Source of the DNA: Mya arenaria | Lineage: Eukaryota; Mollusca; Bivalvia; Myida; Myidae | DNA length: 64,000 nt | Direction: 5' to 3' | NCBI RefSeq assembly: GCF_026914265.1 | Contig: NC_069136.1 | Location: 34,247,368 to 34,311,367, forward strand | In this document: piece after piece, positions 8,755 to 64,000 of the stretch | How the letters are laid out: each line of letters begins with the position of its first letter | How positions within the stretch are numbered: position 1 is the stretch's first letter | The notes under the pieces: generated by a model | The model's database searches: none | What the model saw: only the letters and a program-made list of their open reading frames with translations | What the model was told of the DNA's origin: nothing | Position numbers and translations under genes: made by a program

Positions 8755-10592
8755 GAAACCTTTGCTATGACATTTCTATATTGAATCCTTTGTCATGACA
8801 TTTCCATATTGAAACCTTTGTCATGACATTTCCATATTGAAACCTTTGCAATGGCATTTCCATATTGAAACCTTTGCAATGACATTTCCATATTGAAACC
8901 TTTGCTATGACATTCCCATTTTGAAACCTTTTCTATAACATTACCATATTGAAACCTTTGCTATGATATTTCTATATTGAAACCTTTGTTATGACATTTC
9001 CAAATTGAATCCTTTGTTATGATATTTCCATATTGAAACCTTTGCTATGACATTTCCATATTGAAACCTTTGTTATGACATTTCTATATTGAAACCTTTG
9101 AAATTACATTTCAATATTGAAACCTTTACTATGACATTACATACTGAAAGCTTTGTTATGACATTTCGATATTGAATCCTTTGCTATGGCATTTCCATAT
9201 TGAAATCTTTGTTATGATATTTCCATTTTGAAATCTTTCTTATGACATTTTCTTATTGAAACCTTTGCTATGACAATTCCATATTGAAACCTTTCCTATG
9301 ACATTTCCATTTTGAAACCTTTGCAATTACATTTCCATATTGAAACATTTGTTATAACATTTCCATATTGAGATCTTTGCTATGACATTTCGACATTTGC
9401 ACTTTAGCTATTACATTTCCATATTGAATTCTTTGCTATGACATTTTCTTATTAAAACCTTTGCTATGACAATTCCATATTGAACACTTTGATATGACAT
9501 TTCCGTATTGAATCCTTAGCAATGACATTTCCATATTGAATCCTTTGTTATGGCATTTCCATATTGAATTCTTTGCTATAACATTTCCATATTGAATCCT
9601 TTGCTATGACATTTCCATATTGAATCCTTTGCTTTGACATTTCCGTATCAAATCCTTTGCTATGACATTTCGATAATTAATCCATTGCTATAACATTTCA
9701 ATATTGAAATCTTTGCTATGCCATTTCCATATTGGAACATTTGCTATGACATTTCCGTATCGAATCCTTTGCTATGACATTTCGATATCGAATCCATTGC
9801 TATGACATTTCCATATTGAAACCTCTGCTATGAAATTTCCGTATCGACTCCATTGCTATGACATTTTGATATTGAATCAAATGCTATGACATTTCCATAT
9901 TGAAACCTCTGCTATGACATTTCCGTATTCAATCCTTTGCTATGACATTTCTGTATTAAATCCTTTGCTATGACATTTTTATATTGAAGCCTTTGCTATG
10001 ACATTTCCATATAGAAACATTTGCTTTGACATTTCCATATTGAATCTTTTGACATGACATTTCCATATTGAAACCTTTGTTATGGCATTTCGATATTGAA
10101 ACCTTTGCAAGACATTTTCATATTGAATCCTTTGTTATGACATTTCCATATTGAAACCTTTGCTATGATATTCCCAGATTGAAACCTTTGCTACGACATT
10201 TCCATATTGGAACATTTGCTATGACATTTCCGTATCGAATTCTTTGCTATGACATTACTATATTGAATCCTTTGTTATGACATTTCCATATTGAAACCTT
10301 TGTTATGACATTTCGATTTTGAATCCTTTGCTATTACATTACTATATTGAATCCTTTGTTATGACATTTCTATATTGAATCCTTTGTTATGACATTTCCA
10401 TATTGAATCTTTTGTTATGACATTTCGGTTTTGAATCCTTTGCTATGACATTACCATATTGAATCCTTTGCTATGACATTTCGATATTGAAACCTTTGCT
10501 ATGACATTTCCATATTGCATCCTTTTTTATGACATTTCCATATTGAAACATTTGTTATGACATTGTGACATTTGCACTCTAGCTATGACATT
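8755..10592. repeat. 28-bp minisatellite, about 65 copies
   Basis: Head-to-tail units of consensus CCTTTGCTATGACATTTCCA plus TATTGAAA. Two successive TCCATATT matches are exactly 28 bp apart (8831 and 8859). Units vary mostly at CC/CG/CT before ATATT, at GAAAC versus GAATC, and at GCTAT versus GTTAT. The period is not a multiple of three and stops are frequent, so it is not coding. The array abuts the flank of block A. Confidence 0.95.
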
Positions 10593-11866: not shown

Positions 11867-13686
11867 TTATTGTTTTATTTTAAACAGTTTCAGTTTCATA
11901 CCGCCTATCAAACAGTTGGTCACGGCCATTTTCGAGCCATCACTGGAGACGGAAACGGCGAACGGATATTCCATGTCGACGTCACATGACGCTAATATCT
12001 CCCCGTCGGACGATATCTGGATGACGGAGTTCGTGTTCTTAATGCAGACAAACACGGAGTCATCGGGACATACACAGGTGCCTCTGGGTTCTCGTATCCG
12101 GTCATTTTTTACCTCGTTGTTGTTGCCGGTCACAGTGTCGTACATGTAAAATGTGTGAGTATACCTGTCTGTAAGGACAAGAGTATCCCTGGATGGTACG
12201 TAGGTACAGAGACTTTCCCAATTTTTATACATCTTTCCCGAAAACTTCACGTTATCGAATTCGCTTTCATTGCCGTCTACGTCAATCATTCGTGCAGGGC
12301 TCGGGTCGTCATAAGTGCTCACTAAGAACGTTCGGTCGTTCAGGGGACAGATGGAGAAGCATTTGGTGGACGTGGTCAGCGTCTTCATCAGCGTGATCGT
12401 GTTGTCGCTGCCCACTGTCAGCAGGCAGATGGCTCGGATATCTCCGTCACTGACGGTTACTGCAATATTGTTATCACAGTAAGAAGTTATGTCACGAGGA
12501 TATGTCTTGAATTTATAAAATGTGCCGATCCTCTTCAATGTGTCACTCAAAATAAAACATTTACAGTTCTTGTTATCCACGGCGACCATTCTCCGGTCCG
12601 GCAGGAAGTCCAGCCCAGTAAACAACGGCTGCATCTCGTCGTCTCCTCTTTTGAAGATGTTCATGGTTTTCAAAAGCTCAAGACTCACCACCCGTTGTTG
12701 AATCTTGTTCACATTTTAGAGCTATTTGCTGGCTTGATTAAATCGTATCCATTTAATGATTGTGTTTTTTGCTCTTGTGTTTCATTTAATGAGAATAATT
12801 CCACATCAGTAGTTTTTATTTTCAAAATGTTTTCGTTGATTTCTAGTCCCACTTTGACGGTGTAATCATTCTTCAACAAAATGTTCAGAATTTGTGATGC
12901 TTTGTCTTGCATCCTTTTAAGAATGAGGTTAAGAATGAACATTTCCGTTTCCGTTCCATTCTCGCGAACGCTATCCGACATTGCCAAGTGCGTGTCAAGT
13001 TCTTTCTTCAGGTTTTCAGCCGCATTTCTTCTCGTATTTAGGCGCTCATCTTCCTGTGTATTATGGTTAGTCATTTCGCTGACAATTCGCGCCTTTGCTT
13101 TCTTAATTTTCGTTAATAAGTCTTCTTTGTAAATATCAATTTCGTTAAAGATTTATTCGACTCTCGAAACGTTGTTCAATTGATCCTCCTCGCATTTCAT
13201 TATAACTTCTGAGGCAGTGATAATGGATGCACGTATATTTTCCCTTTCATTACATTTCACATTCTTAGCCACCTTTGATATTTCGTGGATATTATTGCAT
13301 CTTCGATGACGAGAAAAGGCACAGATTTCACAGCACAAATCCTCGTGGTCTGCACAGTGAAACATGAACACGCGTTTATGTTCACAACACTGATCCAGTC
13401 CCTTCATATCGACATCTGGCTTGACACAGGCTTCATGGGCAGCCACGATATCATGTTCATCTACGTTTGTCATGTGTCCCTTGTGTACAACACAGCAGTC
13501 GTCGCATAGATATACCTTGCATGTATTACAGAACAACGAAGCCACCTCTGACCTGTCCCGACGACGACAAGGTTCACACCTGCTCCCGATTCTTCCACCG
13601 ACGGCGTCACTGCCATATTCCTGAATGTTTTCATGCTTGTTAGTTATCCACTTATGTATAAAACTTGTAAAAATTCTTCCGAACAT
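11867..13686 (-). pseudogene. TRIM-like two-B-box, coiled-coil, beta-propeller gene, copy A (broken)
   Basis: The N-terminal half (13686-13153) has a B-box 1 with the CEPCRRRDRSEVASLFCNTC pattern and a B-box 2 starting CCEHKRVFMFHC. There is no RING finger. A charged coiled-coil region follows (13152-12715), then NHL-like propeller blades in 12712-11867 (GLDFLPDRRMVAVD, TCVCPDDSVFVC, AVSVSSDGSKMAV). Two defects are visible. TAA at 13153-13155 replaces the GAA seen in copies B and C, with the frame otherwise continuing. Indels near 12710-12725 put the propeller half in another frame. The N-terminus differs from copies B and C: the first ATG at 13686 adds about 11 residues and the ancestral start may be lost. 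Such proteins are usually cytoplasmic ubiquitin-ligase-related or scaffold proteins, expanded in molluscs. This copy is probably a pseudogene. Confidence 0.85.
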
Positions 13687-19004: not shown

Positions 19005-20215
19005 GCGCGTGATGCCCTTATCTCATTACGACTACACGTAATAATCGCTCTTTGGAAAATCCGTATTTATTTTCCTGTTTGACATCTTTTCCATCGTGAC
19101 CATTGCTCTTTGGAATATAATAATTAATCATTTAGATTGACAATGGGGAAAACTTATAAAAAAGGTAATCATTTTTAATCGTACATCAAAGTATTTAATT
19201 TCACTGGTTTAAATCGAGAACTAGTCCTATATGGGCATATGTTTTAATAACAACGTAAAAACATGTACATAAAGAAACTTAATTATTACAACACAGTTTG
19301 AATAATGATATTCGAATACATATTTACATCAACTTCATTCATGAAAACCATGACTATTTTAACAACACCAATAGTGTGGATCCCAGTGACACAATCTGCG
19401 CAATTATTTTATTGCCTGGGGAGAATGTTTATCATTTGTCCCACATTATATATATATATTAGGTGGGATCCCATTGGGATTTTAAACATATCTCTTTATA
19501 GCACGGGCTTGGTCATCAATCGTAATCTTAAATAACAGTGTCGCGTCTACCAAAGTAAACAAACACATTTTCTATACTCCCCTGCGCAGGGTTATCAAAT
19601 TGGGCTGACAGACTACATAATATTACAAACACGATCAGCTCATGATTAGACTATACCTAAAAATAGTTGTTTCCTTATGTAATCCTTATTTATATTCCTG
19701 TTAAACACCTTCTTAATCGTCACCGTTGCCTGTTGGGATACAATCTTTATTTTTTTCAGATATGGGAAAAGCACAGGGTAACCGTACCAGTAAGTGTTTT
19801 ACTTTACTAATGCAAATTTTGTTGTTTTAACCGAGAGCTATTCCTATATAGGCATCTATTGTATTAATAACGTACAAAACGCATGCACGCAAAGGAACAT
19901 CAATATTTATTTTAACTAGGTTTAAATAATGATATTCGAATACATATTTGCATCAACTTGATTCATGAAAAACACCAACAACAAGAAGTTCGCTTTTAAA
20001 TATTTTAATATGAATATCGAGATGTACTTACTTATACTTAAATTTATTTTGGAATATGTCTACTTTTTGTGAACGATTATACATACTACTTTTCCTCACA
20101 ATGATCAAAGTGTTTTTTGCATTTTCTGAAAACTGAAATTCGGTGGGATCCCGTTGTCTACATATATCTATATATAGCACGGGCTTGAAACTGGGTATTG
20201 ATGAATCATTTAATA
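19005..20215 (+). repeat. tandemly duplicated first-exon block of unit 1
   Basis: Two successive copies (about 19005-19540 and 19615-20215) share TATTCCTGTT(T/A)...ACA(T/C)CTT, an ATG exon, CCTATAT(G/A)GGCAT(A/C)T, ATAATGATATTCGAATACAT and then GGTGGGATCCC(A/G)TTG...TATAGCACGGGCTTG. The same block recurs at 27715-28360 (unit 2) and 33115-33755 (unit 3). Confidence 0.75.
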
Positions 20216-22216
20216 TTAAAATGTGAAGTTTTTTTCATGTATTCGCACATGGGAGGGTTTTTTTGTGGTTGTTATTGCAAACATATTACCAATTTAAATC
20301 CCAGTTCAAACAATTATTACGTAAGATATAAACACTTCTACAAGTTCTACAAGTTTGGAGCTACGGTCCCAGGGTTCCAGCATTTGACACAAGGGGTTGG
20401 GCGTAACCCTCCGACTTTTTTTTTTGATTTCCATATGACATGCTCCGCTCCGACTGCCTTGTTACTTTATCCTTTCCATGTCTTTTTATCTAGGTCGTTC
20501 CGCACGCAAAGAGAAACCCAAGTCAAAATGCAGGGGTGAAAAGAAAAAAGGTAGGAATAGTTAAAACGAAAAGTATTATTTATGAATTTTTTCAGTGTTA
20601 GTGAATCAAATCGTTAAACAATCAAAGTCAATGAGGACGGTTTAGTGATATAAGTATCTGCCTCTCATTCAAATGGTTCAAGCCACATCAGGGACGTTCC
20701 TTTGGCCTATAAATAAGGGGCAGGTTTCTATCAAGGAAACGGACCGGAGGTTGATTTATGTCAAATAATAGATTGGTCACACACGATCTGAACATAATAA
20801 GTATACGAATTCAAAACATAGATGAAGAAAAAAGAAAAGACAATTTAGGACAGGTTTCTACCAAGGGAACGGACCGGAGGTTGAGTTATGTCAAATGATA
20901 GATTGGTCACATACAAGTTGAACGTCATACGTTTACAGATAACAAAAAAGAGAGAAGAAAAAGCAGCATGCATATTATGTTAAATAGTCCAAGTTTAATT
21001 GTTATTGAGCCTAACGATATAATGATAAAACATGCGATTTCCATGGACAATGAAATTAATAGTCAATTTGAGAATAAATGTTGTTTCAGCGTACACCACA
21101 CATGTTAATATTTAAAATTTTCAGCGACATTCAAATCCGATGCTTTTCTGAAGAAATCAAGGTCTGGAGTAAGCACGAAAGATGAATTAAGACGGTAAGC
21201 GAAACTGTGCATACAAAAATGTATTCATATATATATATTAAGATTGTGTTATAAAAGTAACTTAGTATAACAACATGCATTCTTGCTTAAAACATATATA
21301 TCGTCTAATTGTCAATCATGCGCATTTTTCTGGTAAACGAGTAATTTAATTCCTACGGATAAGAACTCTATAAGCAATGCTTTCGTTCCAATCCATTTCA
21401 ATATCAGATACAACTTGTGTGTGAGCAAACACCAGTCTTAGGCGACACCCAATATTATTATAGCATTAAACCCTTTATACGAGCATAAAATATTATTAAA
21501 CTCATGAGATACATAAATTTCTTTGAGACATACCATAACAACCTTATTTATTTATTTATATATTTATATGTGTATATATATTCCTACTCGTGACCGTTAC
21601 CATGTCGAGAAATAGCGTTTAATCTAGTCTGATTGAATTTTTAGCTGTTTACAAACAAAAAAAGTCAAATCATTTGAGAGAATTCGGCGCGGGGGTGGAG
21701 TGGCCGCGTCAGAGAAAAAAAAAGGTAGGGACAGTAAGCACCATAATAATTATTAAAGTCAGAACACTAAATCAAGTAGTTAACAATAGGTAAAAAAGGT
21801 TGTCTAGTGGTATAAGCAGGAAACGGCCCAAAACACGGTACATACATTTCAGCATATAGATCGAACACATTCGAGCTTAGTAGAGCTAGTATTTAATCTA
21901 AAACAACATATTCATTCCAGCGATCACATTTTCTTGAATATTTTACGTTTTAATGCTATTTGTACTTAGCGATAAAAATAATCCGCCTTTTCATGGACTA
22001 TGAAAAAATGCAGGTTTCTGTTGATATCGCACATATAATAGATTATTGAGTCATATTTCAGAGTATGCGCAACCAGATAGAGCAAGGTCGGGAACACAGC
22101 CTGAGCCAGCTGACGTTTTACCGGGCGGAGTTAATCCTCCCTCGGAGATACTGCCGAAACCGAACTTAGATACATTGTTATTCGGTTTTCGGTCAAGCCG
22201 TTTCACAACTCACTAA
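19762..22216 (+). CDS. unit 1: multi-exon gene of unknown function (exons partly duplicated)
   Basis: Candidate exons, each next to GT/AG: 19762-19789 (MGKAQGNRT, phase 1 out, donor AGTAAGTG); an alternative first exon 19143-19164 (MGKTYKK); 20494-20550 (SRSARKEKPKSKCRGEKKK, phases 1/1); 21125-21194 (ATFKSDAFLKKSRSGVSTKD, phases 1/2, donor GGTAAGC); a second Lys-rich exon ending at 21724 (GTAGGG donor); and 22062-22216 (YAQPDRARSGTQPEPAD... to a TAA at 22214-22216). The exon at 21125 ends in phase 2 but 22062 needs phase 1, so the two are probably not adjacent in one transcript; 21724 to 22062 fits if the Lys-rich exon also ends in phase 1. The protein would be short, very basic and low in hydrophobics, with no signal peptide or membrane segment. 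I do not recognise the family. Homologous exons in units 2 and 3 with the same phases support a real gene family, possibly decayed here. Confidence 0.5.
20635..20960 (+). repeat. tRNA-derived SINE-like element, 3' part duplicated
   Basis: GGTTTAGTGATATAAG resembles an A box and AATGGTTCAAGCC a B box, followed by GGGACGTTCCTTTGGCCT and GGCAGGTTTCTATCAAGGAA. The 3' half (CAGGTTTCTACCAAGGGAAC... at 20850) is repeated. A related copy lies at 29206-29365 in unit 2, and a short remnant (GTTGTCTAGTGGTATAAG) at about 21800. Confidence 0.65.
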
Positions 22217-23111
22217 TTTATCCAGAAAGAACTTTATTAGGAATGTGTAAAAGTGAAAAAAACAACATCATATATATCAGTTTCTGATTTGACTTTCTGC
22301 AAAATAATTTACAATACAGGTTTGTCAGACATTTGTGTATACACTGTATGCGTTTATTTCCATGTACAAACATATTGACATATTTTATTTCATAAGTTTT
22401 ATGAGTATTTATCGCTGTACAATGAATAAGTCGGAAATAAACTGTATGCTAAAAGGACACTGAAAAGATTTTGGTTGGTTATGTGACTGTTTCGGCCCCA
22501 ATGTGAGTATCAGTGTTGTTTTGTTGTCAAGCATAATTCACAGACGTAATACTGGTATGAGCTACACTGGTTTATTAACGAGCGGTAGTGTATAACGTTG
22601 ACACACGGGACTTACATTTAACGTCCATCCAGATAGACGATTAGACGTGCTAGTGGTGAGTCATTAAATAAAACAAGCCCTAGGATGACAGACAATTGTT
22701 CTGTTACTAGACCAAGGATTCTCAAATTTTCCCTTTGTGCGTAAGTGGGCTCAATATTTTTTTCTGGTATTTTGGGTTCGAAGCAAGACAAACAAACGCA
22801 AACGGGTAAACAGAAAGCTCTAATTATTTCGGGAATAACTCCCCTAACTGCTCCGGTTTGACTGAACTATCGTTGATTCTAATTGAAACGCTGTTACATC
22901 AAAAAGCACTGGCCTAAGTAGTAAAAACAAACAAAGAAGCAAAGTTCAACGACATCGAGAAACCAGGAAAATGTACATGTGCCTTCATTGTGGTCGTTTA
23001 CGCTCCAGCAATATACCTGTTTTCGCACGATTTGTCAAAAGATAAACATCACGGTAAAACAGTTTACATTCTGGATAATGATCCTTCGAACCCATTTAAT
23101 GCATCCAAAGT
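21195..23111. other. introns and spacer of unit 1
   Basis: Apart from the exons listed under unit 1 (ending at 21724, and 22062-22216), this is AT-rich with nothing recognised. Confidence 0.45.
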
Positions 23112-23885
23112 ATAAAGCAGCAGATTCTAACGCGAAACTGTTTATTGTCCCTAATGGCAAGTGCAGAAGTGCTAACCACGCCGGCTAGTGTAAAAACCAG
23201 CTGCCTCAGTTAAATCGAGACTTTTCACTGACCGCAAGGATAAGTGCAGCACTGCCTACGCTCGCTTGTGTATAAAACAGCAGCCTCGGTTTGATCGAGA
23301 CTATTTATTGTTCGCAAGGAAAAGTGCAGTTCTGTCCGCGCCCGCTAACTTATGAAACAGCAGCCTCGGTTTGGTCGAGACTATTTATTGTTCGCAAAGA
23401 TAAGTGCAGTTCTGTCCGCGCCCGCTAACTTATGAAACAGGAGCCTCGGTTAGGTCGAGAATGTTAATTGTTCGCAAGGGTAAGTGCAGTTCTGTCCGCG
23501 CCCGCTAACTTATGAAACAGGAGCCTCGGTTTTAAAAGAGACTGTTTAATGTCAACAATGGTGAGTGAATAACTGACCACGCCCGCTATGTATCAAACAG
23601 CAGCCTCGGTTTGATCGAGACTATTCATTGATCACAATGGTAAGTGCAGCACTGACCACGCCCACTAGTGTATAAAACAGCAGCCTCGGTTTGATCTAGA
23701 ATGTTTATTGTCAACAATGGTGAGTGAATAACTGACCACGCCTGCTAGTTTATAAAACAGCAGCCTCGGTTTGATCGAAACTGTTCATAGACCACAATGG
23801 TAAGCTGTACTAGCACTGCCTTCATGTGTATGAAACAGCAGCCTCGATTTGATCGAGAAGTGCAGAGTTGTCCACGCCTGCTCTC
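23112..23885. repeat. 80-bp minisatellite, about 9-10 units (unit 1)
   Basis: Consensus runs TATAAAACAGCAGCCTCGGT, TTGATCGAGACTGTTCATTG, ACCACAATGGTAAGTGCAGT, ACTGACCACGCCCGCTAGTG. It is homologous to the array at 30050-30722. Each unit carries a TATAAA box, an ATG and a good 5' splice-site match (ATGGTAAGTG). Unit lengths vary slightly and the end units are degenerate. Confidence 0.9.
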
Positions 23886-24375
23886 AGGCTAGCATCGGTT
23901 TTGGCGTTATTTCTATACTAGCCGAAATAAATAGTCGTGAGCAAAAATAATCACTGGTTATAATGGTTTACAGAAATTTCATAAGAAATTAAACAACCTT
24001 TTAAGATATATATTTTTACACATGTGATTTAAAGGAATATGTCCAGTTAAACTATCACTCACAGTTGCTATATACTCTGATTTGTATAAGCCAGGGCCCC
24101 GTTTAAATAAGAGTTAGTCATATACCTTGCTATGTTTAAGAGCGTCAAGTGACGGGCAGAAAGGAAATTTTATCGCAACGCAGTTTACGGTGTCGGCACA
24201 CAACGAAATGCTTCCGGGTCGTAGTACCCCTTCAAGAAGTTCCTAAAAATGTTTCTCTCCACTCTGGTAGCATTTTATGATGTGTACATTGTATTCTTGT
24301 GTGCATATTCAAGTTTACACATGATTTATATCTTATTTGAAGACAATTATGTGTATTTTTATGATATTTTTTCAG

Positions 24376-24452
24376 GATCTCTTTCTTTGGTGGATGGATT
24401 CAGAGATGACCCCAGAGATGCGGCCATGACTGTGGCACATGGACGTTATTGA
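24376..24452 (+). CDS. candidate terminal exon in unit 1
   Basis: After TATTTTTTCAG, a phase-1 reading gives SLSLVDGFRDDPRDAAMTVA and ends at a TGA after 25 residues. GC content is higher than its surroundings. It would follow a phase-1 donor such as those of the Lys-rich exons of unit 1. There is no homologue in units 2 or 3, so it is only a candidate. Confidence 0.3.
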
Positions 24453-24459
24453 TAGTGAC

Positions 24460-25040
24460 GGTAAAGAAATGATGATAGCAGAAAAACGAAACTATCTTGA
24501 TATGGTTTTCTGGTGTTAAATCAACAGACAACGTGTTCATTATTTGTGGAAAAATAGTGTCATAGTGTCCTTATGCAGAAAACGGTGTTACGCCTGGAAA
24601 TTTACGATCATAAACCTTACAATCTGTATCTAAACGGGAACCAACGCAGTTACCTTTCTTTGCTAGTATCAATTAACGAGTAGCTAAGTTTTATCCAATG
24701 ATCCCTGAATACCTGGGTCCAGTTTCACGAAAGAACAAGAACACAAGGAAACATGTTCCCGCCTGAAATCCTATAGTCCGATTAATATGTAATAAGGTGA
24801 CCGAAAACGATTATCTTAGTTTGTTAGATTAATCACTATTGAATGATTGATTTAATGCATACACTAACAAGAACATTCCACCATGCACATAATGTTGAAT
24901 ATTCCGAGTTTATTGTTATTTGTTGTCAACGCTAAAATGATAAAAATACAATTTAAACGGAGTATTTTATCGAGCAGGTTTTTAAAATAAACCCTGATTC
25001 AGGGGACATAACACATACCATGATAGTCAATGGTCACATA
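24460..25040. other. no feature seen
   Basis: AT-rich spacer without recognised features. Confidence 0.5.
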
Positions 25041-25130
25041 TTTCAAGGAACCACAAACCTGATGGGCTCCCGTAGTAACACAGGTCTGCCGCCGAGCCTG
25101 TTCCCTCTGTCTATATATTAAAAAATGGCG
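25041..25130 (+). pseudogene. decayed copy of the third exon of the unit family
   Basis: GGAACCACAAACCTGATGGG matches GGGACCAACAAATCTGATGC of unit 2, and the following bases (TCCCGTAGTAACACAGGTCTG) keep the alignment. The acceptor AG is changed to AA and the aligned frame stops at TAG after nine codons. The following 90 bp also match the DNA after exon 3 of unit 3 (AGTGTCAAATGAAAAA...ACATGAAGCA). This shows another exon duplication within unit 1. Confidence 0.6.
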
Positions 25131-25209
25131 AAACGATATATACAAGCTGACATTTAAATAGTAACTTATTCCAAGAAGTGTCAAATGAAAAACTAATGGA
25201 CACATGAAG

Positions 25210-26220
25210 CAGAGGCAATTAAATGATGAATTTGACTAGTATTCTACTAAAGCAAATTAAGAAATCTCCCCTCTTTCAATTCAGGAATGTCACAGGAACC
25301 TGACTTATTAAAAAACTACCTTAATAATGAAAGTAAAAGTGAACTTTTATATTAATGCTAGCCACCCTTATAGTAAGTTATTTAAAATATGTATTTTCAT
25401 AATTATAATATTACTAGCTTTTTCAGAGCAAACGCCATTCTTAGTCAACGACAATTATACTTAAGTACGGCAGCGAAATAATGTATCTGAGCTACACCTA
25501 GTTTGCATGGCGGTGTATAGAAAATGTTTTTGGCATACTCTGGTAACCTAGACCTTTTAATACAATAATCCGATTGAAGACCTCGCGCCCCCTTTGGTGA
25601 TTTATTTCATATTAAAGATGGTGTCCAATATGACCGCTGAGTGTTACGAAATCGACAATCTCATTTAATTGTGTGTTAATGATTTCCTCATTTTTTTGCA
25701 AAACTATGATTGATAAATATGAACCAATAAATTCTTATTAAATTTATAACATATTTCAGCCGTCAAAACAAGCAAAACAGAATACTTGTTATGTTTTGTT
25801 GCACATACCGTTTTTAATGAAAAAGTTATTTTTTTTAAACACTCAAAGCCCATTGGTACAGTAGCTCTTGCACATAATATAATCCCGACTTCAAATAAAC
25901 CAAAATGGTGTGCACTGGTTATGATATTTTGTCAGAAATCAATATATGGATTTATTATTTAATGGTACTTGTTTCCAATGTTATATTTAGTGTTTTAAGA
26001 CTTACTGCGATGTAGATTTTTCCATCATTTTTTTCTTAAATATTTTCTTATACATAAAATATATTCATATTTTCTCACAAACAACGCAGAATTTAACTAT
26101 AGTTGATAGGTTAATGTTTGTCTGAAAATAAATAAAAAATATCAGTTCACATTTTGCTACGCATTGTGCAGGTCTTTAAAAGTCGTTCAGGGGTTTCCTT
26201 AAGGTACGATTTAATACGTC
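25210..26220. other. no feature seen
   Basis: AT-rich with no recognised element. Confidence 0.5.
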
Positions 26221-26224
26221 AATT

Positions 26225-26440
26225 TTCTTGACTATTCTATCAATACCCAGCTACTCGACGATATATGACGATGCCTTCACGGTTTATCATGGCATTCTCA
26301 TAGAAGAAAGGTACCGGAAGAACATCAGTCCAGATTTTGAACGATTCGATACGCTTTCTTGATCTTCATTCGAACATTATCTTAGTAGCAACACGTGCCA
26401 GCATATCAGTAGCAGCGTTGTCGATCTTGAAAATAATCGT
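26225..26440 (-). pseudogene. possible decayed coding fragment, unknown family
   Basis: On the minus strand a frame reads DNAATDMLARVATKIMFE, a stop, then RSRKRIESFKIWTDVLPVPF and FYENAMINREGIVIYRRVAG before a stop. The run of about 62 codons with one internal stop and protein-like composition suggests an old exon or transposon fragment. No family is recognised. Confidence 0.25.
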
Positions 26441-26879
26441 AGCTGATCATTTATTATTTTTTGTATTCAAGATAAATTTCATAGTAGACCAATCTGAGGT
26501 CGCGTCTTAACCTTAGCCAAACGTTAAACTCGTACATCGTTTGAAACTGTCTTTGAGCCGAAACAATACGTAACAAAACGTATTTTATTCGTAGTGATTC
26601 AAACTATATTCTTATAAGGAAATCAGGCACAATTACTACTAAAGACAACGAAGATGATATATTTCAGGACATAGTATTTGCTTGTTTGTACATCTTTTTA
26701 GTTTGGACAAAAACAGTTTGTTACAGCCACGTCTAATTTGAAGAGAAAAAAATAAACAGATCTGTGGCCCCTCGAAATATGAATATACTCGTATACATAA
26801 GTGATCAAGACTTGTGACAGAAGGCGTAGCATGTCTCCTCGATAATGGATCCTATTATTATTATACGAAGAGTGTACGA

Positions 26880-27310
26880 ATAATGTGGATACTAACGACT
26901 GCAACTCCCTTCCGCGTAGCGAACTCTTACCCCAGTATATCGACCGAGCATGGCTCTGTTATGGTAGTTTTTTGTTAACCCCACGGTTAAAGACGTCGAG
27001 TAGTTGTAGTTTGTCATGTATAGTTGGGATTTACACTATCGTCGTATCATGGAATGGGACCATTGTCGTGACATATAAATAGTCGTTCATACATTGCAGT
27101 TATCGCATTATCGTCGAGGTAAAACCTCCTGCAATTCATGACATGTTTCTTCTATTTCACCCGATAAACACCTCACTACAATTGTGTCGCTAGAGTGGCA
27201 ACGATCGATCCTCTGCTGGTATTCTACTCACACAATCTCAATGTAAAGAAGCAAATCGTTAACCCAAAACTGACGGCATCAGCATGAATCTTCTGCAGTC
27301 CTTTCAGAAC
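26880..27310 (+). repeat. duplicated 5' block of unit 2
   Basis: Homologous to 16926-17335; the shared landmarks are listed there. It lies about 400 bp upstream of the unit 2 first-exon block. Confidence 0.7.
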
Positions 27311-27714
27311 ATGAACTACTAAGATTGCAGGTAACTTTTAAAATATCTTTAGAAAGACTGTATTTCGGGGCCAATCGATGCGAAATCTGTATAGTGTGAG
27401 TCATGCTTAAATAGTCAACAAATTAAAATAAACATATGCCAGTCTTTATTTCTATCACCATACTATCTCAATGTTGCCATCTTACCATTGTTTATTACAA
27501 AATTATAATTACTTTAATATGTCATCTCTTAAAGGGGGGTACAATGAAGGTTATTACATTTGGCTTTAATGATCAAAGCAAAACAAATGTGCAATGTCAT
27601 ATTAGAGCGTCTCGGTTACATAGATATGCAAAATCATTTCCTATACAAACCGCTGCAGGGTTCTTAACTTCGGCTGCCGGACTTTTACCATATACCCATT
27701 CAAACGCAAAAACT

Positions 27715-28360
27715 CTTATCAGCTAATGACACCCTAATCCCATTGCGACAATACGTAAACAGCGCTTTTTAAAAAATTCTTATTATTTTTCTGTTTGACA
27801 TATTTTCAATATTTTTATATATTTGACATGTTTCGTTGCTTGTTAAATTATAGTTTTAATCTTATTATAACTTTAAGTATTTTATTTTCCTGGTGCAGTG
27901 TTTTCATGTTTTAAACGAAAACTACTCCTATACGGGCATCACCTTTAATGACAACGTACAAAACAGCATGAACAAAAAAGGAACACGAGTATTATAACAC
28001 AAGTTAAAGAACGATATTTGGATGCAACTTGCATCAATATAATTCCTGAAATAACAATAGTTTTCCAACAACTAGGAATCATCAACTAGGGATCCCAATG
28101 CCGTATCACACAACCTGTGCATTAAACAAAAGTATGCTTTTAAAATAGGATAACAATGATACTGAGATTAGTTTACTCAGAATTTAGTTATATGTGGTAG
28201 AATATTTATTTTATGTCCCAGAATATACCTGTACTACATTCTTCTTTACGGTGATCAAAGTTTATACATTTTCTGAAAACTGAAATTTTGTGGGATCCCA
28301 TTGGGTTTCTACACACAACATTTTATAGCACAGGCTTGATCATGAATATTGATGATTCAT
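27715..28360 (+). repeat. first-exon block of unit 2, exon 1 not recognisable
   Basis: Aligns with 19005-20215 and 33115-33755: CCCATTGCGACAATACGTAA, CTGTTTGACATATTTTC, CCTATACGGGCATC, GTGGGATCCCATTGGGTTTC and ATAGCACAGGCTTGATCATG. At the position where units 1 and 3 have the ATG exon, no matching ATG plus donor is present. Unit 2 therefore seems to have lost its start. Confidence 0.65.
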
Positions 28361-28665
28361 TTATAACTACAAAGTTAATGTAATGAATTCATACACGTTT
28401 TCTTGGGGGGGGGGGCTTGTGTTGAGTTTGGCCAATCATTAAAATACCGGGTTAAATATTAAAATCAATCTGCATTAGTGCGAGTAGTAGAATTCCAGTT
28501 TAAACTATGATATCGTACAGTATCGACATTTAGCATTCTAAATGTTAGGGACTAGGATGTCAGGTTTAAATGATGAAACCGCTCCGACTACATTGTATAA
28601 TTTTATATTTGAGTTTTTCCGCTTCGATTACATTGCTTGTTTATAAGCATTTTTATTTCTTTTAG

Positions 28666-29671
28666 ATGCAGGTAGATCCGTACGAAAAAGGCTACCTAAA
28701 TCAGGGAGAAAGACTGATAAGAAAAGAAGAGGTAAACAGATTAAGCAAAAATGATTTTTAAACTATTGTAATAAAATGGATAATTGCTTTTTTTCCGTGT
28801 TAGATCGTAATATATTTAACCAAGTGAGCACCAACAATTTTATTCACGAGATGAAATATATTGCAATCTTACACTAATAAAAACTAAAAATAGGAGTTTA
28901 AAGTCATTTACTAGCAATTTTAAGAAAAACAAGCGCCACACATACACACATAACGGCATTTATAAAATGACGTCGTTGAAATTTTGTCAGAGCCCTTTGG
29001 ACGCTGACGTTTTGATTTGGAACTGAATGCGGGATACGATTTCAAAACATGGAACAATATCAATTTGGTATTTTCACTGTTTCTAACTTTGAAATATCAA
29101 TTCTATTTCACTGGCAAATCTATATAAACCACCGGAAAAATATGATAAATTGTTATTATAGCGTAAGTTTACAGCCTCTAATTGTCGAACATTCAAACCA
29201 AAAGGGTGGTCTAGTGTTATAAGTGTCTACCTCTCATTCAAAAGTCTCGAGCCATATCATGGACGTTTTCTTGGCTTCTAAATAAGGTCAGCTTAGAAAT
29301 GGTTTCTACCACGGAAACGGACTTAAGGTTCTGTAAGCTAATTGATGGTTCACACTCGAGCTGAAATAAATAAGTATACAGTTCCAAAAAGAGGGGAAAA
29401 GGAACAATATCACTATGCAGATTGTGTTAAATATTTGGCAAGTTGAATAGCTCATTTGTATTTAACGATATAATGATAAAATACGATGTTCATGAGCAAT
29501 CCATTAAAGCCGGTTTTAAAACATATCATGTTTCAGACTCCACTGCACATATCATCTTAGCCAATGTTCAAATATTTCAGGGACCAACAAATCTGATGCG
29601 GTCCCGAAGCGACTCAGGTCTGGTATTGAACATGTTCCCTTTGCCGATATATCAAGACGAAGATCTAAACG
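28666..29671 (+). pseudogene. unit 2: partial copy of the unknown multi-exon gene
   Basis: Two exons are clear. One is 28666-28731 after TTTCTTTTAG (AGRSVRKRLPKSGRKTDKKR, phase 1 in and 1 out, donor GGTAAAC). The other is 29581-29671 after AATATTTCAG (TNKSDAVPKRLRSGIEHVPF then ADISRRRSK, phase 1 in and 2 out, donor GTATAT). The second is exactly 91 bp, the same length as exon 3 of unit 3, with conserved S-D-x-V-P-K-R-x-R-S-G. No start exon and no convincing last exon is found, so the copy is incomplete. The exons keep open frames and splice phases despite many base changes, which argues for past selection on the protein. Confidence 0.55.
29206..29365 (+). repeat. tRNA-derived SINE-like element
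   Basis: GGTCTAGTGTTATAAGTGTC (A-box side), CATTCAAAAGTCTCGAGCCA (eroded B box) and GGTTTCTACCACGGAAACGG match the element at 20635-20960. Both copies sit at the same place in their units, between the second and third exon, so the insertion predates the unit duplication. Confidence 0.6.
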
Positions 29672-29699
29672 GTATATTGGAATGTTTTGAATAGTTACT

Positions 29700-30049
29700 T
29701 TGTACCAGGGGTATAAAATGAAAAACAAATGTATGCATGAGGCAATGACAAATAAATGAAGAATTCTGCCAAAATTATATCCAATCCTATATACCTCACC
29801 CTTTCTCTCTGCAGTGCATGCGGTTACGGGAACAATAGTTTTTCCCTTTTGGCCTCTCAAATTAAAGTATATGTTTTTATTATTTTCATGTAGGACACAC
29901 TTATATAAAATCATGTATCTTAATAATTATAATATGTATAAGTTTTATCGGAGCAAACACAAATTTAAGTCTACGATAAATATACTTCTATCATAAACAA
30001 ATATAAACGTGTATAAATCTTATCATGATACATACATTGAGACGACACG
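29700..30049. other. no feature seen
   Basis: AT-rich spacer between unit 2 and the 80-bp array. Confidence 0.45.
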
Positions 30050-30722
30050 CAAAAATAAAACAGTAGCCTTGGTTTAAACGAGACTGTTAATTGACCGCAA
30101 TGATAAGTGCGGTATTGACCACGCCTGCTAGTGTATAAAACAGCAGCCTCGGTTTGATCGAGACTGTTCATTGACCGCAATGATAGGTGAAGTACTGACC
30201 AAGCCTGCTTGTGTATAAAACAGCAGCCTCGGTGTGATTAGGACTGTTCATTTTCCACAATGGTTAGTGCCGTAATGACCACGCCCGCTAGTGTATAAAA
30301 CAGGAGCATCGGTTTGAGCGAGACTGCACATTGTCCACAATGGAAAGTGAAGTACTGACTACGCCAGCTAGTGTATGAAATAACAGCCTCGGTTTGATCG
30401 AGACTTTTGATTGACCACAATGGTAAGTGCGGTACTGAATACGCCTGCTAGTGTATAAACATCAGCTTCGGTTTGATCGAGACTTTACTATCTCCACAAT
30501 GGTAAGTGAAGTACTGACCACGCCCGCTAGTGTATGAAATAGCAGCCTCGGTTTGATCGAGACTGTTGATTGACCACAATTGTAAGTGCAGTACTGACTA
30601 CGCCCGCTAGTATAGTAAACAGAAGCCTTTGTTTGACCGAGACTGTTCATTGACCACAATGGTCAGTGCAGTACTGAGCACGCCCGCTAGTGTATATAAT
30701 AGCAGCTTCGGTTTGATCGTGT
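30050..30722. repeat. 80-bp minisatellite, about 8 units (unit 2)
   Basis: Successive CAGCAGCCTC landmarks at 30141 and 30221 are 80 bp apart. It has the same consensus as 23112-23885, including TATAAAACAGCAGCCTCGG and CACAATGGTAAGTG. Short minus-strand frames repeated in each unit come from the array and are not genes. Confidence 0.95.
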
Positions 30723-30739
30723 TTTGTTGTGTAAAGCTG

Positions 30740-30870
30740 CTTGTAAATATTGCTTGTTGTTGTTACATACAGAAGGGAACTAAAATAAGAAGTTAATCTA
30801 CTTGGCAAGTCTCCTTTATTTATTTCTGCCAATCATATATATAAATGTATCAAATTATGCCTATAATGAA
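30740..30870 (+). repeat. dispersed repeat (copy also at 63785-63920)
   Basis: TTGTTGTTACATACAGAAGG, GAACTAAAATAAGAAGT and GCCAATCATATA occur in the same order and spacing at the right end of the window. No terminal repeats or coding capacity are visible. Confidence 0.75.
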
Positions 30871-30959
30871 GGATACATGTTCTTTATGTTCCTACTTTTA
30901 ATATCTCTGCTGTATCAATTTTAACAAAATCAAATTACATTAACCGTAAACAAAGCAAC

Positions 30960-31560
30960 ATTCTACCATGGGCGCCATACATTGTCTTCGGACACTTGAC
31001 GGACTGCATCATCGTTACTTCGGTAAAATGAAAAACAACCATATGACCCCAAATATTCAAAACGATTTTGGGATTGACTGTCAGTCGAATGTCGAAATTG
31101 GGAAAATCAGAATTGCTACTCCCGAAACTCAAACCGGAAGTAATTGAATAATGTATGGTGACGTCGTCGTAGCCTTTTGCCATCCGCGAGATACGCGAAC
31201 ATTCTAGAATACTCATAGAGGATATTGTACTTTGAGTAGTTTATCCACTCAATCGTTTGTCCAATCTTCTCGCCGTTGACATGAACTCGGCCTGTGGGTT
31301 ATGGCCTTGATGGCTATATGTATAAGGCGCCAGATCCTCTATATGTGGAATCCGATTATCAACTTCCTCAATCCGTCCTTCAGCAGCCTCACTGCTAATC
31401 TGCTTCTATACATAGACGCTCCTCAAATGTCCACTCACATTGGTCGCAACTACCGGATCCCAAGCGCCGTTTGCAGCTACGTATGTGACCGCCTCACGTT
31501 TGCAATCCCGGAAACCGCTGTTGTAGGACGTTGCGGAGGAGGCTGTGTCTGTGGCCTAAG
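30960..31560 (-). pseudogene. HES-type Orange-domain gene remnant (copy 2)
   Basis: On the minus strand 31527-31411 reads SYNSGFRDCKREAVTYVAAN then GAWDPVVATNVSGHLRSVY, a good Orange domain of a Hairy/E(spl)-type repressor, followed directly by a stop. About 190 bp further on, MFAYLADGKRLRRRHHTLF matches the block in copy 1 (8040-8115). The DNA aligns with copy 1 through about 8240, the two copies being on opposite strands. No basic helix-loop-helix exon is found within 1 kb upstream, and no WRPW motif. It is probably a pseudogene or a 3' fragment. Confidence 0.65.
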
Positions 31561-31699
31561 TGGTATCTGCAGAGTGCCTCGTGAGATGGAACGCGGTAAC
31601 TATAGATATGATAAAATGGAAAAAGACACAAAAAACTAACCTTTCTCAGGTATGAAGCAACGTCCCCTAAAGAATTTTGCACGTCTAGATCTATTGAAC

Positions 31700-33110
31700 A
31701 AAATATGTTCTCCGTTCTTGCAAAATGTAAGGGTTTAATGAATCAACTCCTTGTATTTGTGATAGTAATTGTTAAGGGCTTATGTCTGACGGTTGGAGAG
31801 TTTTGCGTGTATATAAAGATTGGGTTTCACGTGTCATTTGGCACGAGATCGTAATTATATCTTCACGTGGACATCCTTAATTGACGCGATTTTTGAGTAA
31901 AGTGGTGTGCAACTTTAAGTAACTGTCAATCTAATTGTTATATTATTATTATTTGATATTTAATTTACCTCATGTGCCCATGCATTAATTGGAATGAGTG
32001 AATAAAGGAAATTAGGCTGACACTATTTGTCCATTATGTAATTTACTACCAGAACGCATTGTGTATTAATGGTAAATCGCTAATAAATGATATTTACTAA
32101 AACTAAGCTCATATTCATATCAAAACAGAAATATTGAAAAATAATTAGCGGCAAAACAGCGTATCGATGGTCAGTGCCCAACATTTAAGTATGTTTATGT
32201 AACGAGCGTTTTAATCGGTCGAAGATGATATCAGGAAAATGACCTTTTTATAGTTTTGCACTGGATTTTGCAAAGAATGAATCAGAGGTAATATTTAATA
32301 TTATCAAACATTTGATTATGAGAATGGACTTTGGCTGCCTTAAAGAAGACGTATAAACATATGGAAGGGCAAAGAAGAAAAAATACATCTTGACTTCCTG
32401 ATTATACATCTTGCATTCTGAGGTGAACATCTTGCATTCTGATTTGTACATCTTGATTCCTTACATGTACATCGTGCTTAATTGCATCCTTGTTGTTTGA
32501 TATATTTAAAGCAGTTGATATTTTAAACCTAATATCAAGTTTGTTGTGTTAAAATTCGCGTAAAATATGATATCGATTAACAATTCCTAGCCAAAACTTC
32601 GTTTCATTTGGGCGAAAGTTCGGAAAGTCGTACAGAAATTAACGGAAGGTTGCGACATAATATGACAATCGGAACTCCTCGGTCAAAATAAATATATCCC
32701 GAAGTTTGCTGGAGATGGCTGAGTTGTTACGATTGATAAAACCTATTTTTTAGAAACTAACGGAAATGACCGACACTGTAAGCTTATTTTAAGCGTATGG
32801 CTATGTGGAATTCGTCCTGGCTTGCTGACATTTTTTATTAGTCATACTTAGGTTTGAGAAACTAAGCCAGCAAAAACAGTAAGCCAAAAAGTAAGCTACA
32901 AATGTATAAAGACAGTAAGACTTAAAGATAGCTTAAACACGATAATAATGGAGATTAATAAATAAACATTCACCAAGCTAGCAATGCAGTTGCTCGGATA
33001 ACGAATTCAGTGTGTAATAGAAAGAAGAACAAGTAAGAAAGCAGGATGTACAAGTCAAAACGCAAGGTGTATCATTTGCTTTAATGTCCTTCAATATAAT
33101 ATTAACGCAC
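31700..33110. other. spacer; short 20-bp repeat at 32385-32480
   Basis: Mostly AT-rich with nothing recognised. At 32385-32480 about five units of TGTACATCTTGCATTCTGA-like sequence occur in tandem. Confidence 0.5.
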
Positions 33111-33114
33111 ATAA

Positions 33115-33755
33115 ATGTTACCAGCTCGTCATACCCTTATCTCATTGCGACTAAAGGTAAACAATGCTTTTTGTAAAATCGTTATTTAAATTCCTGTTGA
33201 ACATTTTCTCAATCTTGACAATTGCTAGTTAAAATATAATCTTTAATTTATTAAGATTGGATTATAGCTGTTTCTAAATTATGGAAGAAACATCCAAACG
33301 AGGTGACCTTTCTAATCATACTAGTAAGTGTTTTATTACTGATGCAATATTCCTATATGGATCTGATGTAATAACAACGTAAGCAAACACAAGAACACAA
33401 AGGCACGTTAATATTACAACACAGTTTTAAAGAATGATATTTGGATACATATTAGCTTTAACTTTATTCATAAAAACCACGAATATTTTTACAACAACTA
33501 GGGATCGTCGTATTACACACAGTGAACATTACACAAAAGTACGTTTTTAAATATTTAACATTACTACTGAAAGGAATTTACTTATCAATTAATGATACGT
33601 GGGAGTATGTATATTGTTTGTTAAAGATTATTGTATACTTCATTTCTTAACGTAAGTCAAATTTGATTCATTTTCTAAAACTCATTCCGGTGGGATTTCG
33701 TTGGTTTTCTACACACATCTTTTAATTGCAGAATCGTTGCAATGAACATTGATGA
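33115..33755 (+). repeat. first-exon block of unit 3
   Basis: Fourth copy of the block described at 19005-20215: ATACCCTTATCTCATTGCGA, CCTGTTGAACATTTTCTCAA, the ATG exon at 33281, CCTATATGGATCTGATG, GAATGATATTTGGATACATA and GGTGGGATTTCGTTGGTTTT. Confidence 0.7.
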
Positions 33756-34686
33756 TTAAATAATTAATTTCAAGTTTCTATAAACTCACACACGCTCGTT
33801 GTGAGGATGATTTGTTATGGCAAGTTGTAATACCAAGTTAAATATATAAAACCTTTTCTAATAGCTCGATCAGTTAAAATCCCTGTTAAAACTATATAGC
33901 AATCTATCGACATTTAACATTTAAAATGTTGAGGGCTACGGTCCCAAGGGATGACCCCCTTACGACAAATTCAGGAACCATTCGAGTGCCTTGTATATTT
34001 TTTCATATTTCATTTTATCCGCTCCTACTGCAAAATTTAAAACTTTTTTGATCAAGGTTGTTCCGTAAACGAAGAGAAGTCTGCGTCAGAGCGCGAGAGG
34101 GGCAAGAAAAGAAAAGGTAGGAACCTTTAAACCCAGAATTTATGTTTAAATAAACAGACCCGAAAGTAATTCTTATCACATTGTTGATGACTTACACTCG
34201 AGCTAAGAAAAATAAGTATATAAACTTAAACATAATTTTATCATGCACATTGTGCAAAATTAACCACGTTTTCTTGCTATTTGCATTTAGAGAATAATGG
34301 TAACACATCCGATGTTCATGGACTTCAGACGACATCACACTTATCATGTTTGTCAAAGTTTACATATTTCAGGGTCCCACGAATCTGATGAGGTCCCGAA
34401 GAGATCTCGGTCGGGTGCTCAGGCCGGTCTTTCTTCAGAGAAGGGAAGAGAAAAGGCCACAAGGTATACATAAAGCTGAATGTGTTTTGATTGTAGCTTA
34501 TTGCAAAAAGTGTCAAATAAAAAAAACGCAAATACACACTTGAAGCAAAGGCGCATTAGTATTAATGCGCTTCCAGACGGACCCAGGTCTGGTGTTGAGC
34601 CTGTTCCCACTGACGATGTGCCAGACGGAGTAGAAAAACCTTTGTCTGGCCTTCCAGACGCCAACTTACGAAAACCCAAACGATAA
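33281..34686 (+). CDS. unit 3: four-exon gene of unknown function, about 109 residues
   Basis: Exon 1 is 33281-33323 (MEETSKRGDLSNHT, donor AGTAAGTG, phase 1). Exon 2 is 34057-34116 (CSVNEEKSASERERGKKRK, phases 1/1, donor GGTAGG). Exon 3 is 34373-34463 after ACATATTTCAG (SHESDEVPKRSRSGAQAGLS then SEKGREKAT, phases 1/2, donor GGTATAC). Exon 4 is 34551-34686 after CAAAG (RISINALPDGPRSGVEPVPT, DDVPDGVEKPLSGLPDANLR, KPKR, stop). The phases join without a shift or stop. The product is charged and disordered, rich in Lys/Arg then Pro/Asp, with R-S-G in exons 3 and 4 and no signal peptide or membrane segment. A nuclear or nucleic-acid-binding role is conceivable but unsupported. The exon 4 acceptor has a poor pyrimidine tract, which is the weakest point. 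I do not recognise the family. Confidence 0.5.
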
Positions 34687-45180: not shown

Positions 45181-45542
45181 CAAATAGTTTAAAAATATAT
45201 AATTTATATAGGCTTAGGATATTTCACTGTGCAAAATTGCTAAATGAACAATATAAAAGATGTTCTCCGACATATCAGTTTATTATTTAAATGATAACGT
45301 TGAATTAAGCTATAAGTAATGCTATAAGTTTCATCATCTTTCAATCAATTATATTTAGAAACATATTTATCTAATAAACATATCAATACAAGACAAATAA
45401 TGGTCGTTGTTTCAAAAATACATTGTATAACTACAAGAATCTTATTCACAAACTGTTTACATAGAATGTTCAAACATAAATTTATATTATTTTACTTTCA
45501 TAATAAATTATACAAAACGCTGGTATCTTGACAAATAAACTT
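45181..45542. repeat. block B, proximal 3' flank
   Basis: GGCTTAGGATATTTCACTGT and TAAAAGATGTTCTCCGACAT match A and C. Relative to them, about 280 bp between CTATAAGTAATGC and TTTCATCATCTTTCAATC is deleted, removing the CCATGGTGATTGA region. Confidence 0.7.
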
Positions 45543-47333
45543 TTATAATATTATTTGAAACAGTTTCATTTTTCTCACGCCACTCACACTGTTGGTCATG
45601 GCCATTTTCGAGCCATCCCTGGACACGGCAACGGCGTACGGATAATCCATGTCGACGTCACATGACGTCAATATATCACCGTCGGGCGATATCTGGATAA
45701 CTGACTTTGTGTTCATACTGCAGACAAACACGGAGGCATCTGGGCCAACACATGCGCCTGCCGGTTCTCGTATCCGGTCATCTTTAACCTCCTCGCCCTT
45801 GCCGGATACGGTGTTATACATGTAAACTGTGTGAGCAAACCTGTCAATTAGAACAAGCATATCCCGGGATGGTATGTAGGTACATTTACTAGCATCATGC
45901 TTATACGTCTTTCCAGGAAACCTCACGCTGTAAAAGTGACTCTCCTTGCCGTCCACGTCTATCACCCTGGCAGGCCGCGGGTCGTAGAATGTGCTCACTA
46001 CGAACGTGCGGTCGTTGAGGTGACAGATGGATAAGCATGTGGTGGACGTGTTCAGCGTCTTCATCAGCGTGATCGTGTTGTTACTGCGAACTGTCAGCAG
46101 GCAGATGGTTCGGATATCTCCGGAACTTACGGTTACTGCAATATTGTTATCAGAGTACGACGTTACGTCTTGTGGATTCGTCTTAAATTTATAAAATGTG
46201 TCGAACCTCTTCAATGTTTCACTTAAGATAAAACATTTGCAGTTGAATTGATCCACGGCAACAATTTTCCCGTCCGGCAGGAAGTCAAGCCCAGTAACAA
46301 ACGGTTCCATCTGGTCGTCCCCTGTCTTCACGAGCTCAATGGTTTTCAACAGCTCTAGACTCACCGGCCTTTGTTGGTTTGTTTGTTTTTCGTCTATAGA
46401 GTGTTTAGCTGTCTTGATTACATCGTCTCCATTTAATGATTGTGTTTTTGGCTCTTGTGTTTTATTTAACGAAAATAATGCGACATCAGTAGTTTTTATT
46501 TTTTAAATGTTTTCGATGATTTTTAGTCCCACTAAGGCGGTGTAGTCAATCTTCAACAGAGTGTTCAGTGTCTGTGCTGCCTTGTATTGCGTTCTTTTAA
46601 GAATGTGGTTTAGAATGAATATTTCCGTTTCCGTTCCATTCTCGCGAACACTATCTGACATTGTCAAGTGCGTGTCGAGTTCTTTCTTCAGGTTTTCAGC
46701 CGCATTTCTCCTCGAATTTAGACGTTCGTCTTCCTGTGTGTTATGGTTAGCCATTTCGCTGACAATTCGCGCCTTGGCTTTCTCAATTTTCGTTAATAAG
46801 TCTTCCTTGTAGATGGCAATTTCTTTTACGATTTCTTCAACTCGCGAAACATTGTTCATTTGGTCCTTCTTGCATTTCAGGATAACATCTGAGGCAGTTG
46901 CAATGGATTCACGTATGTTATCCCTTTCATCATCTTTCACATTCTTAGCTACCTTCGCTATTTCGTGGACGTCGTCGCATTTTCGATGGTGAGCAATTGC
47001 ACATATCTCACAGCATAAATCGCTATGATCTTCACAGTAGAACATGAACGCTCGTTTATGTTCGCAACACTGATCCAGTCCCCTCATATCGACATTTGAA
47101 TTGACACATGCGTCTAGGGCAGCCACAATTTGATGTCTATCTACGTTTTTCATGTGCACCTTGTGAACATCACAGCAGTCATCGCACATATATATATTGC
47201 ATGTTTTACAAAACAACGAAGCCACCTCTGACCTGTCCCGATGACGACACGGCTCACACTTGCTCCCGATTCTACCACCGGCGGCGTCACTACCACATTC
47301 CTCAATGTTATCATCAATTTCTCCGGTAGCCAT
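45543..47333 (-). pseudogene. TRIM-like two-B-box, coiled-coil, beta-propeller gene, copy B (one stop)
   Basis: One continuous frame of 597 codons from ATG 47333 to the stop at 45543, interrupted only by TAA at 46503-46505 (codon 277). B-box 1 spans about residues 26-60 (C26, C29, C42, C45, C50, H57, H60) and B-box 2 about 89-123 (C90, H92, C100, then a C/H-rich tail). A helical, charged coiled coil spans about 124-275. A propeller of about six NHL-like blades fills 330-596 (GLDFLPDGKIVAVDQ, SYSDNNIAVTV, GACVGPDASVFVC, AVAVSRDGSKMAM). There is no RING. It is the least damaged of the three copies: if the one stop is an assembly error, read through or polymorphic, it would be a full gene. Family roles include innate immunity and RNA regulation; none can be assigned here. 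Confidence 0.88.
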
Positions 47334-63920: not shown

Positions 63921-64000
63921 GGTCCTTAAATCCATATTTAATTTTTACTACTTAAACAATTATTAAACAATTCAATAACATGATTGATATACATTATATG

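Follow-up and report, generated by a model that had tools for sequence, protein, structure and literature searches.

Do the short exons that recur in three places on the forward strand of one region of the Mya arenaria genome belong to a protein-coding gene family and, if so, what kind of protein would it encode? The region in question, referred to below as the window, is the whole stretch of 64,000 nucleotides that was analysed (C15:34247368-34311367), and its three groups of exons are called units 1, 2 and 3. The original prediction, made from the window alone, described three tandem homologous units with short GT/AG-bounded exons, in which a Lys/Arg-rich exon 2 is always phase 1/1 and the following exon 3 always phase 1/2, and the junctions read from the sequence bear this out in all three units. 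We consider it likely that the units belong to a gene family amplified in tandem, which encodes Lys/Arg-containing, probably disordered proteins of ~130-140 residues in five or six short exons, and that unit 1 is functional, whereas unit 3 has been damaged by a deletion and unit 2 is a relic.

Gene Model and the Three Units

The predicted gene consists of five or six short exons with the phases 0/1, 1/1, 1/2, 2/1, and in some copies a further 1/1, followed by a last exon that is entered in phase 1. In unit 1, exon 1 (19762..19789, phase 0/1) opens with an ATG and reads MGKAQGNRT, and is followed by the Lys/Arg-rich exon 2 (20494..20550, phase 1/1), to which homologous exons were aligned from 17 other loci, by exon 3 (TFKSDAFLKKSRSGVSTKDELR; 21125..21194, phase 1/2), by exon 4 (CLQTKKVKSFERIRRGGGVAASEKKK; 21645..21724, phase 2/1), and by the last exon with its stop codon (22062..22216), all on the forward strand and with GT/AG at every junction. 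The phase 2/1 exon had been overlooked in the original exon set, and it is needed because the exon 3 donor is in phase 2 and the last-exon acceptor in phase 1. Exon 2 measures 57, 60 and 60 nt and exon 3 70, 91 and 91 nt in units 1, 2 and 3, respectively. An AATAAA poly-A signal lies 220-310 nt past the stop in units 1 and 3 (at 22436 and 34991).

Complete spliced frames, with GT/AG at every junction and no internal stops, were obtained for six copies in the genome: three of five exons and 129 residues (unit 1, 34185798 and 34374344) and three of six exons and 138 residues (C15:34219372-34221961, 34431073-34433851 and 34595807-34598862). Among the copies of the unit 1 type (class 1), the start MGKAQGNR is identical in all five and the exon 1 donor is GTAAGT or GTAAAT; exon 4 keeps its phase and is open in four of the five, where its lengths of 80, 71, 71 and 77 nt differ by whole codons, and is truncated in the fifth. 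In copies 34187 and 34375 the exon 3 GT of the unit 1 type is lost, and a GT 12 nt downstream preserves both phase and frame. An alignment of 13 last exons contains nine invariant positions.

Unit 3 (all exons on the forward strand) is best understood through its sisters, the other class-3 copies. Its exon 1 (MEETSKRGDLSNHT; 33281..33323), together with 30-nt flanks, is identical in sisters 34214669 and 34219342; its exon 2 (34057..34116, phase 1/1) is 100% identical, flanks included, to two sisters; and its exon 3 (34373..34463, phase 1/2) is 98-99% identical, again with flanks, to three. Between the inside of intron 3 and the start of the last exon, unit 3 lacks a stretch that measures ~1.2-1.5 kb in three sisters and that contains, in these, a 50-nt exon 4 (SSATTETKLTERYGSYV-like), a 42-nt phase 1/1 exon (MHSPWVPEDNKRK-like), and the TTTCAG acceptor behind which the last exon stands. 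The deletion has removed all three elements, and its junction forms the 5' edge of a last-exon remnant (34565..34686). The original prediction had joined four exons of unit 3 into a product of 109 residues; the frame is indeed open, but the model itself is ruled out by the missing sequence and by its last acceptor, AG 34551, which is matched or exceeded in score by 47% of the AGs in the window (85% for the homologous AG 34560).

Unit 2 retains exon 2 (28672..28731, phase 1/1) and exon 3 (29581..29671, phase 1/2), both on the forward strand, the latter being 73% identical to the unit 3 last exon over 67 columns. No exon 1 was found in unit 2, and no later exon could be recognised in the 1.6 kb that begin with exon 3; in three class-2 sisters, exon 1 is followed by TT where GT is expected, and one of them has a stop in exon 2. 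As far as can be judged from sequence, unit 1 looks complete and apparently functional, unit 3 looks like a deletion copy, and unit 2 like a relic. Two further fragments accompany unit 1 on the same strand, namely an upstream duplicate resembling exon 1 (19143..19164), with flanks 71-75% identical to those of unit 1 exon 1, and a relic copy resembling exon 3 (25047..25132), with two stops and a shifted AG.

Exons 2, 3 and last have a GC content of 0.40-0.56 vs 0.34 in the background, with five of the eight in the top 3.1% of background stretches. The frame of unit 3 as it stands scores 17.6 for codon usage vs a best value of 9.1 in 2000 background draws; the other two forward frames of unit 3 (13.0 and 11.8) also lie above the background, and units 1 and 2, as joined at that stage, gave no support for their frames.

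Distribution of the Family in the Genome

Copies were counted within a single genome, the Mya arenaria assembly (1.216 Gb in 18 contigs), and the genome searches scored the best candidates only. A cluster at C15 33.88-34.95 Mb comprises at least 25 loci in which one exon or more can be recognised, 24 of the 25 on the same strand and arranged as a repeating series of classes, although near-identical copies could partly be assembly duplicates. A 70-residue query returned 17 listed exon matches, all of which fall at C15 33.89-34.60 Mb, on a single strand and with no internal stops, and internal stops are also absent from 13 of the 15 matches to the last exon that fall in the cluster. Two distant last exons, at C15:37117804 and 37882929, are found on the same chromosome, each behind a TTTCAG and in the same phase; for the one at 37.88 Mb, exons further upstream were sought and none was convincing. 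An open frame on the reverse strand (C15:37892890-37893140), ~10 kb upstream of this distant last exon, ends in SLPPPNLRK and a stop, which recalls the C-terminus of the family.

With a DNA query, 34 matches were listed, 30 of them on C15 and four on C7 and C13. Of these four, three cover intron 1 and one extends over the site of exon 1 as well; three of the four were examined and yielded no convincing exon. Within the window, units 2 and 3 align over ~1.1 kb at 64% identity, introns included, and the units are old tandem copies. A relative in viral contigs was also sought and rejected, none of 33 pattern matches being confirmed by tblastn with a query lacking one Glu.

Conservation and Selection

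The original prediction rested its case for selection on conserved exons standing in surroundings that had drifted, and this picture does not hold in the window. Across the exon 1-2 region, units 2 and 3 are identical at 653/1012 positions, compared with 41/56 in exon 2 and 58/90 in exon 3, and identity in the 100 nt that precede exons 2 and 3 amounts to 68-74% in the three pairs (z 4.7-9.4 vs shuffled sequence). Exons 2 and 3 of the window show no greater conservation than the intron DNA in front of them. What survives of the claim is its downstream part, the 100 nt that follow these exons aligning less well (z 0.0-4.7). When the exon 1-2 regions of all three units are aligned and read on both strands, 10 AG..GT segments of 30-200 nt prove to be conserved in every unit (four forward, six reverse). 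Exon 2 is the only one of these whose lengths agree modulo 3 and that is open in a common frame; of five segments in the exon 3 region one qualifies, a stretch of 37 nt that begins at the acceptor of exon 3. Looser pairwise scans also return a few other segments, some of them on the reverse strand.

Neutral-substitution simulations point to constraint in the last exon (unit 1 vs unit 3, p=0.003-0.004), whereas six pairs of exon 2 or exon 3 gave p values of 0.06-0.57, and exon 3 compared with the last exon as paralogues showed no constraint in two comparisons (p 0.7-0.75). As a control, the full propeller frames of the TRIM-like genes of the window, described below, were recognised as constrained in each of three pairs (0/1000 simulations). 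Sub-windows of 34 codons from the same frames were so recognised in only 11/25, 8/26 and 15/25 cases, and the power of the approach is therefore low for short exons.

Under an MG codon model with omega, the ratio of nonsynonymous to synonymous change, either free or fixed at 1, the last exon gave omega 0.52 (13 copies, p=0.0007), and exons 2, 3 and last together gave 0.50 (the eight copies aligned for all three, p=5e-5); the combination of exons 2 and 3 gave 0.78 (15 copies, p=0.17). These sets exclude the stop-bearing last exons 34570272 and 34614316, the distant pair, copy 34612 and partly read copies, and retain the damaged unit 3, 34094 and 34568, with columns gapped in more than half of the rows and one stop codon dropped. 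Exons were also compared with their own introns. In three complete class-3 copies, the incomplete unit 3 and 34214 having been left out, nonsynonymous changes per site in exons 1, 2, 3 and 6 are lower than the intron rate (7/243 vs 161/2085, p=0.004), and those in exons 4-5, a grouping chosen post hoc, are higher (13/70 vs 161/2085, p=0.003). In classes 4 and 5 pooled, exons 3 and 6 are again low against noncoding DNA (6/302 vs 208/2960, p=0.0002; class 5 alone, p=0.0008), and exon 4 deviates in the same direction as class-3 exons 4-5 without reaching significance (9/72 vs 208/2960, p=0.10). The two class-6 copies are too similar to judge (1/142 vs 13/2075). All p values are those of single tests, uncorrected, and gene conversion between classes could bear on the rates.

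Several observations weigh against a functional family of this kind. An omega of 1 is not rejected for exon 2 alone (18 copies, omega 0.64, p=0.12) or exon 3 alone (16 copies, omega 0.74, p=0.21). Over the whole frame of the three class-3 copies, the nonsynonymous value (pN 0.042) is close to the synonymous one (pS 0.040), with 0.052 for noncoding DNA; class 4 taken alone gives p=0.10 for exons 3 and 6, with three codons skipped; and the signal in class 2 is weak (exons 1-3, 13/139 vs 202/1326, p=0.08). The class-1 pair 34185/34374 shows no constraint (7.5/235 vs 51/2028), and unit 1 differs from its two intact class-1 sisters by pN 0.20-0.21, pS 0.34-0.35 and noncoding 0.18-0.19. Individual lesions add to this. 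Stops interrupt the last exons of 34570272 and 34614316, exon 2 of 34194, and the sequence matched to exon 4 in the two class-6 copies; three class-2 copies read TT at the exon 1 donor where GT is expected; class-4 copy 34415 has a disturbed frame in exon 3; and 34094 has lost the AG before its last exon.

Taken at the level of codons, purifying selection on a protein is seen in the last exon, the joined exons, class 3, and classes 4 and 5 pooled, and not in exons 2 or 3 alone or in the class-1 pair. The proposal of selection on a small disordered protein thus stands in its core, through the genome-wide copies, the omega tests and the exon and intron rates, and loses part of the in-window reasoning first offered for it; a dN/dS near 1, named at the outset among the findings that would count against it, is rejected for the last exon and the joined exons but not for exons 2 and 3 taken singly.

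Alternative Explanations

The damage described above would also fit a formerly protein-coding family that segmental duplication has multiplied for the most part as dead pieces, so that the constraint is history and no protein is made now. Two of the three units in the window are broken, stops or lost splice sites occur in class 2, class 6 and copies 34568 and 34612, and the class-1 pair lacks constraint; set against this, nonsynonymous rates are low relative to their own introns in the recent copies of class 3 and classes 4 and 5, and six complete spliced frames exist, which leads us to regard a dead family as rather unlikely. About equally doubtful, if anything slightly more so, is the idea that the exons represent a part, or alternative ends, of a larger gene with a bigger product. 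A strong acceptor immediately precedes the ATG of unit 1 exon 1 and makes a further exon upstream likely, and the distant relatives at C15:37.12 and 37.88 Mb are recognised by their last exon; but such an upstream exon could be untranslated, the ATG and stop are conserved in complete copies, and the AATAAA follows the stop in units 1 and 3.

A mobile element or non-coding repeat with chance frames is very improbable in our estimation. Other repeats are abundant, and the surroundings of exon 1 and intron 1 have the four matches on C7 and C13, yet the recognised exons form one cluster, nearly all on one strand, plus the distant pair on the same chromosome, and, among the matches listed, exon matches occur on C15 only and not as the dispersed copies typical of transposable elements. 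The 2.2 kb around unit 3 hold only three short internal inverted repeats and no terminal ones, the full-length products have no Pfam match, transposase-type domains included, and there is constraint at the level of codons. A mobile-element origin was rejected on the inverted-repeat scan and on the inspection of the C7 and C13 matches. A known non-coding RNA family is likewise ruled out for the exon units, the only match in the window at Rfam gathering thresholds being one tRNA, a tRNA-Ser (AGA) at 55776-55854 on the forward strand.

Predicted Product and Relation to Known Families

An amplified, functional gene family for a small protein remains the reading that we prefer, and its product resists assignment. 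The expectation that it could not be linked to a known family was confirmed within the libraries searched: three full-length products had no Pfam match at E <=1, the peptide of the damaged unit 3 matched only FRG2 at E=0.069, below the cut-off, the best NCBIfam hit (damaged-copy and unit 2 peptides only) had E 0.16, and the best PDB hit E 0.84. The product had also been described as basic, which is apt for unit 1 (net charge +20 of 129 residues) and barely so for the unit 3 type, class 3 (+5 of 138); FoldIndex is negative for both protein types.

An analogy is offered by HMGN, small disordered nucleosome-binding proteins of ~100 residues that are Lys/Arg-rich, are encoded in several short exons, have a nucleosome-binding core motif, and are represented by a model in Pfam. 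The clam products would resemble them in small size, short exons, Lys/Arg-richness and probable disorder, as an analogy of working only; they differ in that the full-length products have no Pfam match and in that their best-conserved part is a C-terminal Pro/Gly motif. Family expansion has parallels in bivalves, where the titles of reports point to expanded C1q-domain (PMC6835236) and C-type lectin (PMC10140915) families, tandem duplication being named in the title of the former. The clam family would share expansion in a bivalve genome with these, but they encode known domains, whereas it has no Pfam-recognised domain and its products, judged by eye, lack a signal-peptide-like start. None of the literature titles found names the clam exon family, which is a statement about titles and not a claim of absence from print. 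We take the units to be a real, tandemly amplified and unnamed gene family of a known kind, the expanding family without a known domain, and a new member of it as far as the searched libraries show.

TRIM-like Neighbours and Other Features of the Window

The reverse strand of the window carries a TRIM-like gene with a B-box and a propeller-like part (45543..47333; Pfam zf-B_box, E=3.1e-7) and, by DNA similarity, two further TRIM-like genes (11867-13686 and 59750-61470). Of 66 candidates for relatives of the propeller part of one of them, the best 40 were scored. C15 carries 36 of these, with 22 at 34.02-34.67 Mb, seven at 37.14-37.94 Mb and five at 54.2-54.5 Mb, and six of the 40 fall outside these three groups. 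At 37 Mb the TRIM-like strand is reversed, as is that of the distant last exons. The TRIM-like genes and the exon family share two regions of C15 on opposite strands and have therefore been amplified in the same regions in opposite orientation, although they are unrelated in sequence and only the former have a recognised domain, the B-box. The genome searches returned no last-exon match at the 54-Mb group.

Minisatellites of 28 bp and 23 bp lie near the three TRIM-like genes (8755-10564, 43877-45181 and 58940-59123). Tandem arrays of 80 bp (8-9 copies) follow units 1 and 2 (23133-23858 and 30055-30719), and none was reported after unit 3; directly after the unit 2 array, and again at the end of the window, there is a repeat (30723-30940 and 63759-63981) with 73% identity over 227 aligned columns. 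On the forward strand, an exon-like stretch at 24377-24452 behind TTTTTTCAG ends in a stop (...LVDGFRDDPRDAAMTVAHGRY), is unlike the family, and has a frame without a Pfam match, and an open frame of 388 residues (198-1364) with a match to a TNP-like RNase H N-terminal domain (E=2.7e-6) resembles a transposase remnant.

Possible Function and Implications

If it is made, this small, probably disordered and fast-evolving protein may work in the nucleus: the basic N-terminal part, with KKRK and PKRSRSG, would give nuclear entry or contact with nucleic acid, the constrained C-terminal motif could dock to a partner, and the middle of the protein might be free, or driven, to vary. The nuclear role and the docking are guesses, and to that extent they too count against the functional reading. 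A more speculative version, which we hold to be improbable, is that of an arms-race family, whose small disordered protein would be constrained at both ends and hypervariable in between, and which would have been amplified along with the TRIM-like neighbours and perhaps serve them. The rates agree with it only in part, class-3 exons 4-5 evolving faster than introns, classes 4 and 5 tending the same way without significance, and the class-1 pair not doing so, with 0/53 changes in exon 4.

The case of unit 3 advises caution, since a tidy open frame in a single copy may stem from a damaged gene. The family is also easily overlooked in annotation because its exons measure only ~30-160 nt. Its description would add an unnamed gene family to chromosome regions rich in amplified TRIM-like genes, and, if the variable middle and the link to the TRIM-like genes are true, the product would be a candidate fast-evolving protein of immunity or reproduction.

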